64,000 nucleotides of DNA from Phycisphaerae bacterium. Its GTDB lineage: Bacteria; Planctomycetota; Phycisphaerae; Tepidisphaerales; Tepidisphaeraceae. Below are positions 51,478 to 58,520 of this stretch, piece by piece; within the stretch, counting starts at the first letter, position 1; each line of letters begins with the position of its first letter. The stretch is taken from NCBI GenBank assembly GCA_025924315.1, contig JAICIO010000001.1, positions 124,001-188,000 of the forward strand, given 5' to 3'. Position numbers and translations under genes: made by a program. Under the pieces are notes generated by a model. It was not told where the DNA came from. It made no database searches and saw only the letters and a list, made by a program, of their open reading frames with translations.

Positions 51478-51538
51478 GAATTGTTGATGGGATTTGCCCT
51501 CGGTTGACGCATACTACCCGTGGCGGGAGGTGCGCTCG

Positions 51539-52324
51539 ATGGATGAGGGTACCGACGGGGATCGAACGGCGACGGCTACTCGGCTGATGAATGAGGCGGC
51601 GGCCGGCAACGAGCGCGCGTCCGCGGAACTGTTGCCGCTGGTTTATGACCAATTGCGCCGGCTCGCGCGCCGCAAGGTGCGAGACGAGCGCGCAGGGCAG
51701 ACGCTGCAAGCGACAGCGTTGGTCCACGAAGCATATCTGCGTTTGGTCGGGCCGCGAGGCGACAAGAAGTGGGACGGGCGGGGACACTTCTTCGCCGCCG
51801 CTGCCGAAGCGATGCGGCGAATTCTCATCGATAACGCGCGACGTCGCGATCGTCTCAAACGCGGTGGGGGCGCGCGGACGACGCGCCTCGACGAAATGCA
51901 GATCACCATCAAAGTCCCCGCCGACGATTTGCTCGCGCTCGATGAAGCGCTGACAAACCTCACTCAGAAGCACCCTGACAAGGCGGAGCTCGTGAAGCTG
52001 CGCTACTTTGCCGGACTGTACGTCATCGGCAGCCTCGATACGCAGGCGGTGATCCGCACAAACGCTGGCGGAAGCTGGTCCACGAGTGACGACTACGCGG
52101 GCGCCGCGGGCACGTCGCTGGCGTACAACGCGTTTACAGTCGACTCCAATGGCAACCTCTACGCCGGGGGGAACGACACGTACAGCGGCGCGCCCCCGAC
52201 GTTCGTCCGCTCCATGTCCGCTCCGGCGCCCGCATCGACTTCAACCGCTACGAGCCTCTTCTCTCAGACGCCGATCGTGTCTCAGACAAACCCGGATCTC
52301 ATAAAAGATGTGATGGGGAGTTGA
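51539..52324 (+). CDS. Chimeric gene: ECF sigma factor lacking region 4 fused to propeller C-terminus
   Basis: 261 residues. Up to the codon ending at 52018 it is a planctomycete-type ECF sigma factor (LLPLVYDQLRRLARRKVRDE; ATALVHEAYLRLVGP; HFFAAAAEAMRRILIDNARR; LVKLRYFAGL). It stops exactly where the sigma-4 helix-turn-helix should begin. From 52019 the frame is homologous to the last ~100 residues of the exported propeller protein at 56308 (IRTNAGGSWS.SDDYAG.AGT; YNAFTVDS.G.LYAGG; PPTFVRSM). It has a GGAGG motif 8 nt before ATG 51539, so it may still be translated. Without region 4 it should not recognise -35 sites. Best read as a deletion scar in a duplicated sigma-kinase-propeller cluster. 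Confidence 0.85.
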   Translation: MDEGTDGDRTATATRLMNEAAAGNERASAELLPLVYDQLRRLARRKVRDERAGQTLQATALVHEAYLRLVGPRGDKKWDGRGHFFAAAAEAMRRILIDNARRRDRLKRGGGARTTRLDEMQITIKVPADDLLALDEALTNLTQKHPDKAELVKLRYFAGLYVIGSLDTQAVIRTNAGGSWSTSDDYAGAAGTSLAYNAFTVDSNGNLYAGGNDTYSGAPPTFVRSMSAPAPASTSTATSLFSQTPIVSQTNPDLIKDVMGS

Positions 52325-52627
52325 TACGCGGCGGACTTCTTATTTTCGGAGCGCGAGCAAAAAGGGCCGGCTATGAAAGCCGGCCCTTTCGCTTGGCGTT
52401 ATGAGCAGCTCCCAGGTTAAAGCAAAGGCCGTCGCGCTTTCGATCGCCTCCGTGACGGCGCCGTTGCGTGGACTCCAGGACCGCACCTTGCCTTCTGGTG
52501 ATAAACCGAAAAAAGGGTTGCGCAGCGTCGATCGTCGCGTAAGATACGCTGCCTCGGAAGCCGGAGATCGTGAAATTGAGCCGATCTCACTCCCGATGGC
52601 GCATTTCTTCGCGGGGCGGTCGAAATC
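52325..52627. other. 303-bp gap between the chimera and the intact sigma gene
   Basis: It contains the palindromic terminator at 52361-52389. The remaining ~240 bp must hold the promoter of the sigma-kinase operon. No clear consensus promoter or repeat is seen, and no Shine-Dalgarno precedes the ATG at 52628. Confidence 0.5.
52361..52389. terminator. Terminator after the chimeric gene (paralogous copy of the one at 57636)
   Basis: AAAGGGCCGGCT (52361-52372) and AGCCGGCCCTTT (52378-52389) form a 12-bp perfect stem with a 5-nt loop. The A-rich left and T-rich right flanks allow function in both directions. The stem is identical to that following the intact propeller gene. Confidence 0.88.
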
Positions 52628-53239
52628 ATGCAGAATCCATCCATCGAAGACGCGGACGCGCGCTGCGCTGCCGTCACGCAACTGCTGAACCAGGCGAAAG
52701 CCGGCGATCGGCAGGCGGCGGGGGATCTCCTTCCGCTCGTCTATGACGAGCTGCGGGCGCTGGCGGCCAAGAAGATGCGGCAGGAGCGCGGCGATCACAC
52801 GCTGCAGGCGACGGCGCTTGTGCACGAGGCATATTTGCGCGTGCTCGGCGGCGCCGACGCCGCGCGCTGGGATGGCCGCTGGCACTTCTTCGCCGCCGCC
52901 GCGCAGGCTATGCGACGCATCCTCGTCGAAAACGCGCGGCAGCGTGGTCGACTCAAACGCGGCGGAGGTGGCGAACGGCTCAACCTCGACGACGTCAATG
53001 TCACCGTCGACCAGCCGCCGGATCATTTGCTTGCGCTCGACGAAGCATTAATCGAATTCGCCCAGAAGCATCCCGCCGAGGCCCGGCTCGTCCAGCTGCG
53101 CTATTTCGCCGGCCTCACGCGCGACCAAGCCGCCGAGGCGCTGGGCATCTCTCCCGCCACTGCCAGTCGAGATTGGGCTTTCGCCCGTGCCTGGCTTTAC
53201 AAGCGCATCACCGAAACGGAGCGGTCGGATGAAGGATGA
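52628..53239 (+). CDS. ECF-type RNA polymerase sigma factor (planctomycete subfamily)
   Basis: 203 residues, complete. Region 2: LLPLVYDELRALAAKKMRQE and ATALVHEAYLRVLGGADAAR; linker: WHFFAAAAQAMRRILVENAR; region 4: RLVQLRYFAGLTRDQAAEAL with 'GISPATASRDWAFARAWLY' as the helix-turn-helix. It belongs to the ECF subfamily that travels with Ser/Thr kinases in planctomycetes and acidobacteria; no anti-sigma gene is adjacent. The kinase gene starts 11 bp before this stop, so the two are translationally coupled, consistent with kinase-controlled sigma activity (known for related ECFs; here inference). Confidence 0.93.
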   Translation: MQNPSIEDADARCAAVTQLLNQAKAGDRQAAGDLLPLVYDELRALAAKKMRQERGDHTLQATALVHEAYLRVLGGADAARWDGRWHFFAAAAQAMRRILVENARQRGRLKRGGGGERLNLDDVNVTVDQPPDHLLALDEALIEFAQKHPAEARLVQLRYFAGLTRDQAAEALGISPATASRDWAFARAWLYKRITETERSDEG

Positions 53240-56198
53240 GAAGGCCATCTTCACAGAAGCCATCGCGATCGCGAACGCCGTCGAGCGCCGAGCCTTCCTG
53301 AACCGCGCGTGTGGTGACGACGCTGAACTGCGCGCACACGTCCAATCGCTGATCGACGCGCACGAGCGCGCTGGCACATTTCTCGAAGCCCCGCCCGCTG
53401 GATTGCAAAACGCACAAACCCATTCGGCAGTCGACCTCGCCGGCACGACCATCGGCCACTACAAACTCCTCGAGCGCATCGGCGAAGGCGGAATGGGCGT
53501 GGTTTACATGGCCGAGCAGATGCGCCCCGTCAAGCGCCGCGTCGCGCTGAAGATCATCAAGCCCGGCCTCGATACGAAACAGGTCATCGCCCGCTTTGAA
53601 GCGGAGCGCCAGGCGCTGGCGATGATGGATCACCCCAACATCGCCAAAGTCTTCGAAGCCGGCACGACCGAAACCGGGCATCCCTATTTTGTGATGGAAC
53701 TCGTCCGCGGGATTCCAATCACCGATTACTGCGATCAGCATCAGCTCACCCCGCGACAGCGCCTCGAACTATTTCTTCCTGTATGCCAGGCCGTTCAGCA
53801 CGCGCATCAGAAGGGGATCATCCACCGCGATCTGAAGCCCAACAACGTGCTGGTGACGCTCGGGGATAACGATAAGCCCGTCCCCAAGGTGATCGACTTC
53901 GGCATCGCCAAAGCCACCGGCGAGCAGCGTCTGACCGACCGGACGCTCTTCACCGAGTTCCGGCAGCTCATCGGCACGCCGCTCTACATGAGCCCCGAGC
54001 AGGCCGAGATGAGCCAACTCACCGATGTCGACACACGAAGTGACGTCTATAGCCTCGGTGTGCTGCTGTACGAGCTTCTCACTGGTACAACTCCATTCGA
54101 CAAGCAGCGCCTCGCCAAGGCCGCTTACGACGAAGTCCGCCGCATCATCCGCGAAGAGGAGCCGCCGCGGCCAAGCACGAGACTGAGCACGATGGGCGAC
54201 GTGCTCACTACCGTCTCCGCGCAGCGCCAAACCGATCCGAAGAAGCTCAGCCAGACGGTCCGCGGCGAGCTGGACTGGATCGTCATGAAGGCGCTGGAGA
54301 AGGAGCGTTCGCGGCGATACGAGACCGCGATCGGCCTTGCGCACGATGTCGGACGATATCTCGCCGACCAGCCGGTCGAGGCCTGCCCGCCATCACGGAT
54401 GTATCGATTGAGGAAATTTGCCCGCCGGAATAGGCCCCTGCTAGCGACGGTGGCCGTCATCGCCATCGTGCTGATCGTCGCCACCGTATTCAGTTCCTGG
54501 CAAGCGGTGCGCGCCACCCGCGCGCGCATCGAGGCCGGTCGCGAGGCGGATAAGCAGAAGGCGATCAATGATTTCCTGCAGGACATGCTCCAGTCCGCCA
54601 ATCCGTATGCCACCAGCTTAAGCGAGCCGTACAAGGGGAAGGACGTGACGGTGCTTCAGGCGATTGGTGGCGCCGTTCGCAGGATCGACGAGGGAGCGCT
54701 AAAGGATCGACCCGAAATAGAGGCGGCTGTGCGCGACACCATCGGCGAGACTTATTCCAGCCTGGGGGAACGAATACTCGCGCAAGCACAACAACGCGAG
54801 GCGCTGCGGCTCGCTCGGCAGGTCTATGGGCCCGAGCATCCTGTCGTAGCGCAGGACATGCTCGACCTCGGACATACTCTTTTTTTGGTCGGCGGCCGAG
54901 CGGAAGCCGGGCCACTCCTGCGGCAAGGGCTGGCGATGCAGCGCAAGTTTCTCGACGAGAAGGACCCGCGATTGGTTGAGAGTCTTCGTCGCTTCTGCCA
55001 GTTGTTGCTCAGCGAAGATGCCGACGCTGAGGCCGAAAAAGTCGCGCGTGAGATCATTCGTATCGATCCGCGGGCAACCTCGGCATTGGTTGAGGTACTG
55101 GCACAACAGCACCGATGTGCGGAGGCTGAGTCGGTTTACCGCCAACTGCTGACCTCCACCGAACAGGAGAACGGAGCGGATCACGTACGCACTCGCCAAA
55201 CACTGATGGGCCTTGCGCAGGTGCTGGACGCGGAAGATAAGCTTCCGGAAGCGGAAGCGATGTATCGCCGGGGACTGGAACTATCGCAGCGGCTGCGGTT
55301 CACGGACGATCCCACATATATCTGTATGGAATTAAACCTGGGGGACGTGCTGAGAGAGCAGGGGAAGATTGATGACGCGAACGTACATTACCGTCGCGGG
55401 TTGAAATGTGCCGTCACGCATCCCTCCAGGCAACACCTACCTATTCGACTCGCCGAGATTCTGCGCGCGCAGGGTCTAGCGACCGAAGCCGATGCCGCCC
55501 TGCGCCACCTCATTGCGACTTTTACCGAAGCAATTCGCGCCGAGCCCAAGATAACGCAATTGTGGATTGGTCGCGCGATGTGCTACAGGGCGCTTGCGGA
55601 GTACACAGAAGCCGTAGCGGATTGCACAAAGGCGGTAGAGTTAGAGCCAGGCGACTGGGCAACATGGAGCCATCGGGCCAGCGTTTATGCCCTTTCCGGC
55701 CATCCGGAGTTGGCCGAGGCTGATATCGCCAAAGCCATGGAGCACGCAGATCAGAACGCTGTGGCGTACAACGATCTGGCATGGATCATGGCGGCGGAGC
55801 CGTCACTCTTCGCGAGAAATCCGAAGTTGGCCATGGAGCTTGCGGAGCGATCCTCCTCGCTTGCGCCAAACAGCGGGAGCCATTGGAATACACTTGGACT
55901 TGCGCTCTACCGCGCGGGGGATTACGTCAAGGCAATTGATGCGCTGACGCGCTCGCTTCAGCTTCAGAAAGGCGACGACTTCAGTTGGGACGCCTTCTTT
56001 CTCGCCATGGCCCGCTGGCGCTTGGGCCATAAGGACGAAGCCCGAAATTGGTACAGCCAAGCCGTGCAATGGATGGACAAGCACGAGCCGGGGAAAGCGG
56101 AATTGACTCGCTTCCGCGACGAGGCCTCACAGCTTCTGCAGCTTCCTCTTTCTGCAACCACTCCCACCACGATCAGCGCCCCAGCATCGCGGCCCTAG
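53229..56198 (+). CDS. Transmembrane Ser/Thr protein kinase with C-terminal TPRs
   Basis: 989 residues from ATG 53229. Kinase domain about residues 78-370: 'ERIGEGGMGVVYMAEQM' (Gly loop), VALKIIKPG (Lys), IIHRDLKPNNVLV (catalytic loop), KVIDFGIAKA (DFG), GTPLYMSPEQAE (activation segment) and RSDVYSLGVLLYELLTGTTP. One TM helix, LLATVAVIAIVLIVATVFSS (about residue 415), separates it from a ~550-residue outer region with many TPR hairpins (AYNDLAWIMAAEP; TQLWIGRAMCYRALAEYTEA). The N-terminal ~75 residues form a helical segment seen in sigma-linked kinases. It is likely a sensor kinase acting on the upstream sigma factor. Confidence 0.95.
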   Translation: MKDEKAIFTEAIAIANAVERRAFLNRACGDDAELRAHVQSLIDAHERAGTFLEAPPAGLQNAQTHSAVDLAGTTIGHYKLLERIGEGGMGVVYMAEQMRPVKRRVALKIIKPGLDTKQVIARFEAERQALAMMDHPNIAKVFEAGTTETGHPYFVMELVRGIPITDYCDQHQLTPRQRLELFLPVCQAVQHAHQKGIIHRDLKPNNVLVTLGDNDKPVPKVIDFGIAKATGEQRLTDRTLFTEFRQLIGTPLYMSPEQAEMSQLTDVDTRSDVYSLGVLLYELLTGTTPFDKQRLAKAAYDEVRRIIREEEPPRPSTRLSTMGDVLTTVSAQRQTDPKKLSQTVRGELDWIVMKALEKERSRRYETAIGLAHDVGRYLADQPVEACPPSRMYRLRKFARRNRPLLATVAVIAIVLIVATVFSSWQAVRATRARIEAGREADKQKAINDFLQDMLQSANPYATSLSEPYKGKDVTVLQAIGGAVRRIDEGALKDRPEIEAAVRDTIGETYSSLGERILAQAQQREALRLARQVYGPEHPVVAQDMLDLGHTLFLVGGRAEAGPLLRQGLAMQRKFLDEKDPRLVESLRRFCQLLLSEDADAEAEKVAREIIRIDPRATSALVEVLAQQHRCAEAESVYRQLLTSTEQENGADHVRTRQTLMGLAQVLDAEDKLPEAEAMYRRGLELSQRLRFTDDPTYICMELNLGDVLREQGKIDDANVHYRRGLKCAVTHPSRQHLPIRLAEILRAQGLATEADAALRHLIATFTEAIRAEPKITQLWIGRAMCYRALAEYTEAVADCTKAVELEPGDWATWSHRASVYALSGHPELAEADIAKAMEHADQNAVAYNDLAWIMAAEPSLFARNPKLAMELAERSSSLAPNSGSHWNTLGLALYRAGDYVKAIDALTRSLQLQKGDDFSWDAFFLAMARWRLGHKDEARNWYSQAVQWMDKHEPGKAELTRFRDEASQLLQLPLSATTPTTISAPASRP

Positions 56199-56307: not shown

Positions 56308-57603
56308 ATGAACTCGTCTGTCGCTAAGGCGCGCCGATCCCGCTCATTCCTACTTGTCGAAACGCTGGAGGGTCGCCGTCTTATGTCAGGTTGGACGACC
56401 GTTGATACCGACGCGAACAGCTACGAGCTCACGGGCATGGCCGCCGACAAGGCCGGCAGCGTCTATGCCGTTGGTGCGGACAACAGCAACAACGCCAACC
56501 TGCGGCAAGAGAGCGGCGGTGTGTGGAGCACCGCGCTGACGATCGCAGATGGCGGAGTGACGGAATTCAACTCGGTCGCCACCGATTCGGCTGGCGATGT
56601 ATTCATCGCCGGCAGCGTGCAGGGTAATACCAGCGGCATCGCAACGATCTGGGAACGGCATTCCGGACAGAGCGGGTTGATTGTCGTCGATAGCCTTGCC
56701 AGTGCGGAGTACAAAAGCATCACCACCGATGCCGCAGGCGATGTGTTTGCCACTGGCACGCAGACGATTACAACAACGTCGCGCGGCAAGGCCACTACGA
56801 CGCAATATGGCATCGTCAGGAAGCTGACGGCTGCTAACGGCAGTTTCGTCGCCAGCACCAGTTCGCTCGGTACGTCGGTTGCCCTCACCGACATCACCGT
56901 GATCGTCACTGGCACTGCGACGGGCGCATACGCTGTCGGCACTTCCAGTTCGAACTACTGGAACGTCTTCAAGAGCAGCAATGGCGGTGGAAGCTGGTCG
57001 CTCGTGGACCAATTCCGCTACGATCCGGGCTACGGCTCAAGCGCCTGCGCCGTTACGGGCGACGCCGCAGGCAACATTTACGTCGGCGGACTTGGTCAAA
57101 CAGCAGTCGCCACAGGTTATTCCCGCACCGGCAAACCCATCTACGCCACGCGAAACCATTGGATTGTGCGCAAGAGCTTCGGCGGCAATAGCGGTTCGTG
57201 GTCTGTCAATGATGATTATCTTCCGTCCGGCGATAGTGAGGCTTCCCCTTTGGCGATGGGGGCGGATCTCGGCGGGTCCATCTACGTTGTCGGCTATGCC
57301 GGCACTAGCCTCAACGCCACGCACGCAATCATTCGTACCAATGCTGGAGGAAGCTGGTCCCCGACCAGCGACGACTACGCCGGTCCGGCCGGCACCGCAT
57401 TCGCGTACAACGCATTCACGGTGGATTCAACGGGCACCCTATATGCGGGCGGCGATGATATGGCCAACGCGGTTCCTCCTACCTTCGTGCGGTCGATGCC
57501 CGGCGCAGCCCCGGCAACCATTTTGACGAGCAGTCCGTTCTCTCAAACGGCGATCGCGCTTAATGCGACCTCCAATCTGGTGGCGGATGTGATCGGAAAC
57601 TGA
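56308..57603 (+). CDS. Exported beta-propeller-like protein with LEPR-XLL-like N-terminus
   Basis: 431 residues. Residues ~15-28 read LLVETLEGRRLMSG, close to the planctomycete LEPR-XLL export/anchor signature (LE.R.lLs). The body is made of short SBBP/propeller-type repeats (GMAADKAGSVYAVGADNSN; SVATDSAGDVFIAGSVQG; SITTDAAGDVFATGTQ; FTVDSTGTLYAGGDD). There are no enzymatic residues. It follows the kinase by 110 bp and is probably the effector or surface partner of the sigma-kinase pair. Its C-terminal ~100 residues recur in the chimeric gene at 51539. Confidence 0.75.
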   Translation: MNSSVAKARRSRSFLLVETLEGRRLMSGWTTVDTDANSYELTGMAADKAGSVYAVGADNSNNANLRQESGGVWSTALTIADGGVTEFNSVATDSAGDVFIAGSVQGNTSGIATIWERHSGQSGLIVVDSLASAEYKSITTDAAGDVFATGTQTITTTSRGKATTTQYGIVRKLTAANGSFVASTSSLGTSVALTDITVIVTGTATGAYAVGTSSSNYWNVFKSSNGGGSWSLVDQFRYDPGYGSSACAVTGDAAGNIYVGGLGQTAVATGYSRTGKPIYATRNHWIVRKSFGGNSGSWSVNDDYLPSGDSEASPLAMGADLGGSIYVVGYAGTSLNATHAIIRTNAGGSWSPTSDDYAGPAGTAFAYNAFTVDSTGTLYAGGDDMANAVPPTFVRSMPGAAPATILTSSPFSQTAIALNATSNLVADVIGN

Positions 57604-57635: not shown

Positions 57636-57664
57636 AAAGGGCCGGCTATGGCAGCCGGCCCTTT
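57636..57664. terminator. Bidirectional terminator between propeller gene and response regulator
   Basis: AAAGGGCCGGCT (57636-57647) and AGCCGGCCCTTT (57653-57664) with a 5-nt loop. The A6 run on the left reads as T6 on the minus strand, making a strong terminator for the response-regulator gene and a weaker one for the propeller gene. Confidence 0.9.
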
Positions 57665-57687: not shown

Positions 57688-58275
57688 TTAGTACACGACC
57701 GCGGTCGCGTCTTCGATCGCTTCGATGACCTGGCGGACGTGGAACGGCTTGCGGAGATATCCGTCGAAGCCGCCGGTGCCGAGCAAGCCCTTGCTCTCGT
57801 CTTCGGTCATCTTGCCGCTCATGGCGATGACCTTGGTCAGTTGAAGGTCGGCATTGCTTTTCACCTGGCGTGCCACTTCACGACCGTCGATGTCGCGCAG
57901 GTGCATGTCGAGCAGGATGACGTGCGGACGGAACTTCTCGGCCGTCACACCCGCGGCGAAGCCACCCTTGGCGACTTCGACTTCGTACTTCGCCTCGTCC
58001 TCGAGAATCTTCTCGAGCACTTCGACGATGTCCTGCTCGTCGTCCACGATCATGACCCGCGTGCAGCCGGTCATCAGACCATTGAGCGGCATGCCGTGCT
58101 GCTTCATGAAGCGGATAAGCTGATTGAGGGGGATACGACGATCCTTGCTGCCTGGAATGCGATAGCCGTGCAGCGCGCCGGAGTCGAACCACTTGCTGAC
58201 CGTGCGCGGCGCGACGTTGCAGATCTTGGCAACTTCGCCCGTCGTGAGAACGTCTTTAACTTTCGTAGCGCTCAT
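57688..58275 (-). CDS. Response regulator with N-terminal excisionase/MerR-type HTH and C-terminal receiver
   Basis: 195 residues from ATG 58275. Residues ~8-60 form a Xis/MerR-like winged HTH (DVLTTGEVAKICNVAPRTVS, KWFDSGALHGYRIPGSKDRR). Residues ~72-190 form a receiver domain: VMIVDDEQDIVEVLEKIL, phosphoacceptor Asp123 in ILLDMHLRDIDG, the Ser of IAMSGK and the Lys of YLRKPF. The DNA-binding domain is in front of the receiver, the reverse of OmpR/NarL regulators. No sensor kinase is adjacent. It is divergent from the glycosyltransferase at 58521. The first of two close ATGs (58281) is an alternative start. Confidence 0.9.
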   Translation of the reverse strand: MSATKVKDVLTTGEVAKICNVAPRTVSKWFDSGALHGYRIPGSKDRRIPLNQLIRFMKQHGMPLNGLMTGCTRVMIVDDEQDIVEVLEKILEDEAKYEVEVAKGGFAAGVTAEKFRPHVILLDMHLRDIDGREVARQVKSNADLQLTKVIAMSGKMTEDESKGLLGTGGFDGYLRKPFHVRQVIEAIEDATAVVY

Positions 58276-58520
58276 GTGCATTTCTCCCGACAACAGCCGG
58301 CGTGCCGTTGACAACACTTATATCGACTCGCCGAGTAACTGCTTTAGAACGTGTGCGCAGTTTTTGCCGCACGGTCGGGAACTACTGTAGTACGCATTCT
58401 TATCGGTCTGATGTGACGCCCGAGGCCGTATTGATCGCTGATTTGCCCCGCAATTGCAAGCTTTAATCCGATAATCAGCCGCGTCGAAAACTGCTTTCGG
58501 CGCGGTTATCATGCCGCCCC

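Follow-up and report, generated by a model that had tools for sequence, protein, structure and literature searches.

The question raised by this locus is how a single open reading frame comes to begin as an ECF sigma factor and to end as the tail of a beta-propeller protein, next to an intact triad of sigma factor, kinase and propeller. The original prediction was that the frame at 51539-52324 of the window (the whole 64,000-nucleotide stretch of Phycisphaerae bacterium DNA analysed here) arose by duplication of a sigma-kinase-propeller module and a subsequent in-frame deletion in one copy. With a probability of about 0.62, we favor the reading that this is a real in-frame deletion chimera within such a duplicated module, and that it is at present a young, effectively dead relic.

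According to this reading, a segment running from the sigma gene through the Ser/Thr kinase, the propeller and the terminator to the 3' end of a response-regulator gene would have been duplicated in tandem long ago, and both copies of the module would then have been under purifying selection. The upstream copy would comparatively recently have lost about 4.2 kb by illegitimate deletion, namely region 4 of its sigma gene, the kinase in its entirety and all but the last quarter of the propeller, the reading frames being joined by chance. What remained would encode a non-exported protein made of sigma region 2 and part of a propeller, unable by itself to read a -35 element and able to bind core only if another kinase phosphorylates its conserved Thr (in QATA). 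The relic may possibly still be transcribed and translated.

Architecture of the chimera and its junction

The open reading frame encodes 261 residues, and a Shine-Dalgarno-like sequence (GGGAGGT, 51524-51530, plus strand) can be read before its ATG. Its sigma part (51539-52018, plus strand) comprises ECF sigma region 2 and the linker, up to the LRYFAGL that opens region 4. Pfam Sigma70_ECF (PF07638) matches residues 13-162 over profile positions 4-154 of 185 (E 3.8e-48), and the NCBIfam model TIGR02999 matches over positions 3-152 of 183 with 169 bits against a cut-off of 126; by these matches above cut-off, sigma region 2 is present. No Sigma70_r4 match was found in the chimera, whose profile match ends earlier, while the intact paralogue at 52628 has one. 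The junction at 52018 is the end of the YFAGL codon (chimera codon 160), in frame and at a domain boundary. The 101 residues that follow it (52019-52324, plus strand, including the stop codon) align to residues 326-431, the C-terminus, of the 431-residue propeller protein encoded at 56308-57603, with identity at 65 of 100 aligned residues. With the Pfam match, this tail identity and the codon end at 52018, the predicted succession of an ECF sigma factor up to YFAGL and a propeller tail is confirmed. At the DNA level, identity to the intact triad is 70% in the sigma part of the chimera (E 2.5e-44) and 66% in its tail and terminator (E 2.9e-18).

The codons that match the chimera junction are separated by 4,166 bases (about 4.17 kb) in the intact triad, in agreement with the claim that an intervening kinase is gone and that some 4 kb were deleted. 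Region 4 of the sigma factor, the kinase and all but the last quarter of the propeller are absent from the chimera. Since its tail amounts to only about one quarter of the propeller, with neither the N-terminal export region nor the full blade set, the description of the product as a fusion to an exported propeller had to be given up; what the sigma part is joined to is a propeller tail, and export of the product is not expected. A structural model of the chimera carried no usable information (pLDDT 38), a sequence search of solved structures with its sigma part returned no match, and a promoter scan of the region did not find a sigma-70-like site.

A frame of this kind might also be produced by the assembly itself, if the draft, which is probably metagenome-derived, had joined distant pieces or skipped a kinase. 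The assembly is a draft of 262 contigs with a contamination estimate of 4.6%, sigma-kinase genes are multi-copy, and the related genome G032 has one contig that stops within a sigma gene and another that stops within the propeller. However, the contig that holds the junction in its interior is 189 kb long, and the frame is kept; within the window no word longer than 12 bases is shared around the junction, and neither side has a near-identical copy in the genome (the best is 80% over 97 bases). What commonly produces chimeric joins is thus not seen, which speaks against the assembly collapse raised along with the prediction and makes an assembly error very unlikely. As for the route of the deletion, recombination between homologous repeats was considered and set aside, as no supporting shared word was found at the junction, as far as the surviving sequence shows.

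The intact triad and the shared 3' ends

The gene next after the chimera is the intact paralogous ECF sigma factor of the triad (52628-53239, plus strand), which has both region 2 and region 4 and covers Pfam profile positions 3-182 of 185. It is followed by a Hanks-type Ser/Thr kinase with TPR repeats, recognized by domain matches (53229-56198, plus strand), which is the gene missing from the upstream copy. The last bases of the sigma gene and the start of the kinase gene overlap at 53229-53239 (GGATGAAGGATGAG), which suggests translational coupling of the two in the intact triad. The third gene (56308-57603, plus strand) encodes a protein with an N-terminal LEGRRLMS motif (a weak Planc_extracel match) that is a beta-propeller by its predicted fold; the model is of moderate confidence (mean pLDDT 63, pTM 0.70) and matches beta-propellers, among them those of CylK, of the PLL lectins and of the PknD extracellular domain. 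On the opposite strand lies an intact response regulator with HTH_17 and receiver domains (57688-58317, minus strand).

Terminator-like hairpins stand behind both the chimera (52361-52389, plus strand) and the intact triad (57636-57664, plus strand), and the same stem, AAAGGGCCGGC...GCCGGCCCTTT, is found at both. The pattern AAAGGGCCGGCN{3,9}GCCGGCCCTTT occurs at exactly two sites in the 6.57-Mb genome, one behind the chimera and one behind the intact propeller, so that this sharing with the neighbor is unique in the genome; for a slightly shorter form of the pattern the chance expectation in the window is 0. The identity of the two stems had been noticed beforehand, and it is borne out. Further downstream, at 52428-52460 (minus strand), we find a probable remnant of a response-regulator 3' end, which reads EAIESATA in antisense against EAIEDATA and is collinear with 57701-57735, within the intact regulator gene whose 3' end is its likely source. 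The alignment score of this remnant is 35, against 22.4 +/- 3.5 for shuffles (11 of 2000 shuffles reach 35), and its offset from the terminator is nearly equal to that in the intact copy. Taken together, the terminator pair and the remnant argue that the segment common to both copies probably extends beyond the genes, and such collinear sharing outside genes is to be expected in a tandem segmental duplicate. The chimera resembles known products of tandem duplication and internal deletion in its gene order and strand, in its shared ends and in the loss of the middle; it departs from them in that the joint is in frame, at a domain boundary, and shows no detectable breakpoint homology as judged from the paralogue.

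The hairpins themselves differ at only 2 of 29 bases, in flanking DNA that is approximately 66% identical. This near-identity would be accounted for by selection on the stem or by local gene conversion.

Ancestry of the two halves

Judged from its kin genomes, the organism is probably one of the Tepidisphaeraceae (Phycisphaerae). The propeller family is of very restricted distribution. Whole-protein searches find it in 2 of 61 related genomes and in 2 of the 26 genomes of the family, a tail-profile search of 397 genomes of the class gave strong matches in the organism's own genome and in G032 only, and a GTDB-wide scan returned one locus, contig JAICTV010000269.1 of G032, a Phycisphaerae MAG. 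In the 6.57-Mb genome under study the family occupies two adjacent places, the sole other match being marginal (E 0.017). For the propeller end, duplication and deletion are thus well supported. Related genomes had been proposed as the place to look for two tandem triads, and no relative with an ancestral double triad was found; G032, the only other genome with the propeller, has contigs broken at the relevant points. Its propeller contig (C209, the contig named above) is broken inside the propeller and a separate contig (C273), which may lie elsewhere in that genome, ends inside a sigma gene, and as such G032 cannot decide the ancestry. With the sigma fragment on C273, the chimera has 68% identity and the triad sigma factor 71%.

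The sigma half (160 residues) is 62% identical to the triad sigma factor, and 66, 65 and 63% identical to the paralogues on contigs C60, C132 and C98, respectively. These five sequences and the C273 fragment form one clade (support 99/97). The best tree does not unite the chimera with the triad sigma factor; a tree constrained to do so is worse by 5.6 log-likelihood units (p-AU 0.12, on a short and near-saturated alignment), and the AU test does not reject the grouping. Given the short alignment and the heavily diverged synonymous sites (dS 1.26), this branching presents no contradiction to the duplication. It is nevertheless conceivable, albeit unlikely, that the sigma half came from another sigma-kinase lineage situated beside a duplicated propeller, that a deletion fused these neighbors, and that the triad was never duplicated as a unit. 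The triad sigma factor not being the closest to the sigma half (62% against 63-66%), the failure of the best tree to recover the grouping, and the regions upstream of the two sigma genes, in which similarity was not above that of shuffles, would all be in keeping with such an origin. Weighed against this are the order and strand of the parts, which are those of the triad, the collinearity of the terminator and response-regulator remnant, and the inability of a near-saturated alignment of 160 residues to resolve the branching or to reject the pair.

The sigma-kinase pairing is otherwise regular in this genome, with intact paralogous sigma genes adjoining a Hanks-type kinase on C60, C98, C132, C4 and C59 and at 67 kb on C1, and the absence of a kinase behind the chimera, where the next gene is the paralogous sigma factor at 52628, is therefore abnormal. 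Strongly matching sigma genes in the 26 genomes of the family end at profile positions 181-184, the exceptions being the chimera (154), a frameshifted copy on C164 and one gene that runs off the end of its contig. Returning to the duplication and in-frame deletion that we favor, the restricted propeller family, the unique terminator pair, the probable remnant and the regular sigma-kinase pairing all speak for the predicted history; that the adjacent triad itself is the other copy is less clear, as the sigma halves are not grouped in the tree, though the AU test leaves the pair standing.

Several other observations were made on the sigma paralogues. The C164 copy (G000:C164:1813-2230; locus L036, about 1768-2360) is a second sigma relic in the same genome, with a frameshift in a run of C; its homology stops near the start of region 4, no kinase comes after it, and the next gene encodes an exported HAF/DUF3466-type protein. 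Two such sigma genes without region 4 and kinase are therefore present in this genome. Repeat proteins of the DUF7453, ankyrin and propeller types follow sigma-kinase pairs (C98 L032 2985-4724, C60 L030 2549-3331 and, on C1, window 56308-57603), and the module may in general be one of sigma, kinase and effector with an exchangeable third gene. Several sigma paralogues carry the motif CGCATTT approximately 18-50 bases ahead of their start codons (window 52599-52627, L036, L031, L030 and L085); CGATGGCGCATTTC is identical upstream of the triad and C164 sigma genes, and the chimera has CGCATAC. CGCATTT is possibly a candidate promoter or leader element.

Age, putative phosphorylation and possible function of the fusion

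The sole lesion in the chimera is the truncation of both parent genes. As regards pseudogene signs, its frame is open, uninterrupted by stop codons or frameshifts, and conserved residues have not been lost. Of the 26 sigma positions with at least 90% conservation among its relatives, the chimera keeps every one, which many of the intact relatives do not. A relative-rate test on the tail with G032 as outgroup counted 6 unique changes in the chimera and 5 in the intact copy (p = 0.76). The proposed dN/dS check on the sigma part returned a low value (0.24, with dS 1.26), but this spans the time before the fusion and says nothing certain on the time after it; the value for the tail (0.07, with a saturated dS of about 2.9) likewise includes pre-fusion time. 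Rough scaling by synonymous divergence, weakened by saturation, limits any fully unconstrained period to at most about 5-10% of the time since the duplication, as an order of magnitude only. The prediction was right that the duplication is old; the fusion, however, with no decay, equal rates and this bound, is young relative to the duplication or else constrained, and since no second genome carries it, the two are inseparable.

Region 2.2 of the chimera reads QATA in place of the charged DAED. Intact relatives of its sigma part are also without DAED and keep the Thr, which aligns with the phosphorylated Thr of STTA (PMC8999054). In EcfP, STTA stands in place of DAED and the protein is intrinsically inactive until its second Thr is phosphorylated by the neighboring kinase, which enables core binding (PMC8999054, PMC8103513); the review among these sources adds that ECF groups other than ECF43 may behave differently. 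By analogy with EcfP, the chimera would probably bind core RNA polymerase only after phosphorylation by the kinase of another locus, such as that at 53229. Recognition of a -35 element by the chimera alone is excluded on established grounds, as region 4 is gone. The suggestion that the product could act as a competitor for RNA polymerase is weakened accordingly, QATA implying phosphorylation-dependent core binding and the kinase in cis being gone.

Among characterized systems, the STPK-linked ECF sigma factors (EcfP/EcfK of ECF43; in planctomycetes, for instance, ECF59, ECF61 and ECF62) have the sigma gene directly before a Hanks-type kinase, like the intact paralogues here, and an uncharged, Thr-bearing region 2.2 motif (STTA in EcfP, QATA here; PMC8999054, PMC8103513). 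Unlike them, the chimera is without region 4 and its own kinase. Region 2 and the linker match the TIGR02999/PF07638 family well, although, unlike in the family, the match ends at 152 of 183. RsoA, of the split SigO-RsoA pair of Bacillus subtilis, is similarly a sigma2 domain without sigma4 (PMC8103513), but the chimera is of the ECF family, looks like a deletion product and not a member of a conserved pair, and has no known sigma4-only partner.

Rather improbably, the fusion might instead be maintained as a regulator, a region-2-only sigma factor whose QATA Thr is phosphorylated in trans by the neighboring kinase and which, by occupying the RNA polymerase clamp helices or titrating the kinase, damps the sigma factor of the next triad. 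The frame is intact, with a start codon and a Shine-Dalgarno-like sequence, neither the putative phospho-Thr nor any of the 26 conserved residues of region 2 is changed, the terminator is retained with an identical stem, and an intact paralogous kinase adjoins. The same features are, however, equally expected from a recent deletion; the fusion is not conserved in any other genome searched, the quarter-propeller tail has no confident fold of its own in a low-confidence model, and core binding should be weak with neither region 4 nor DAED. A more elaborate form of this proposal, to which we give very little credence, is that of a naturally evolved dominant-negative or decoy sigma factor, in which a phosphorylatable region-2 fragment capped by the propeller tail still reads the signal of the neighboring kinase and tunes the intact sigma factor of the next triad.

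As it stands, the chimera that we ascribe to a recent deletion is mainly a relic, the relative youth of which may be inferred from the absence of decay. If its product is made and kept, it would offer a testable case of a decoy sigma factor arising from a single deletion. If our reading of its origin is correct, the locus provides a clean example of the turnover of sigma-kinase-effector modules in planctomycetes, in which duplication is followed by the loss of the kinase and sigma region 4 from one copy.
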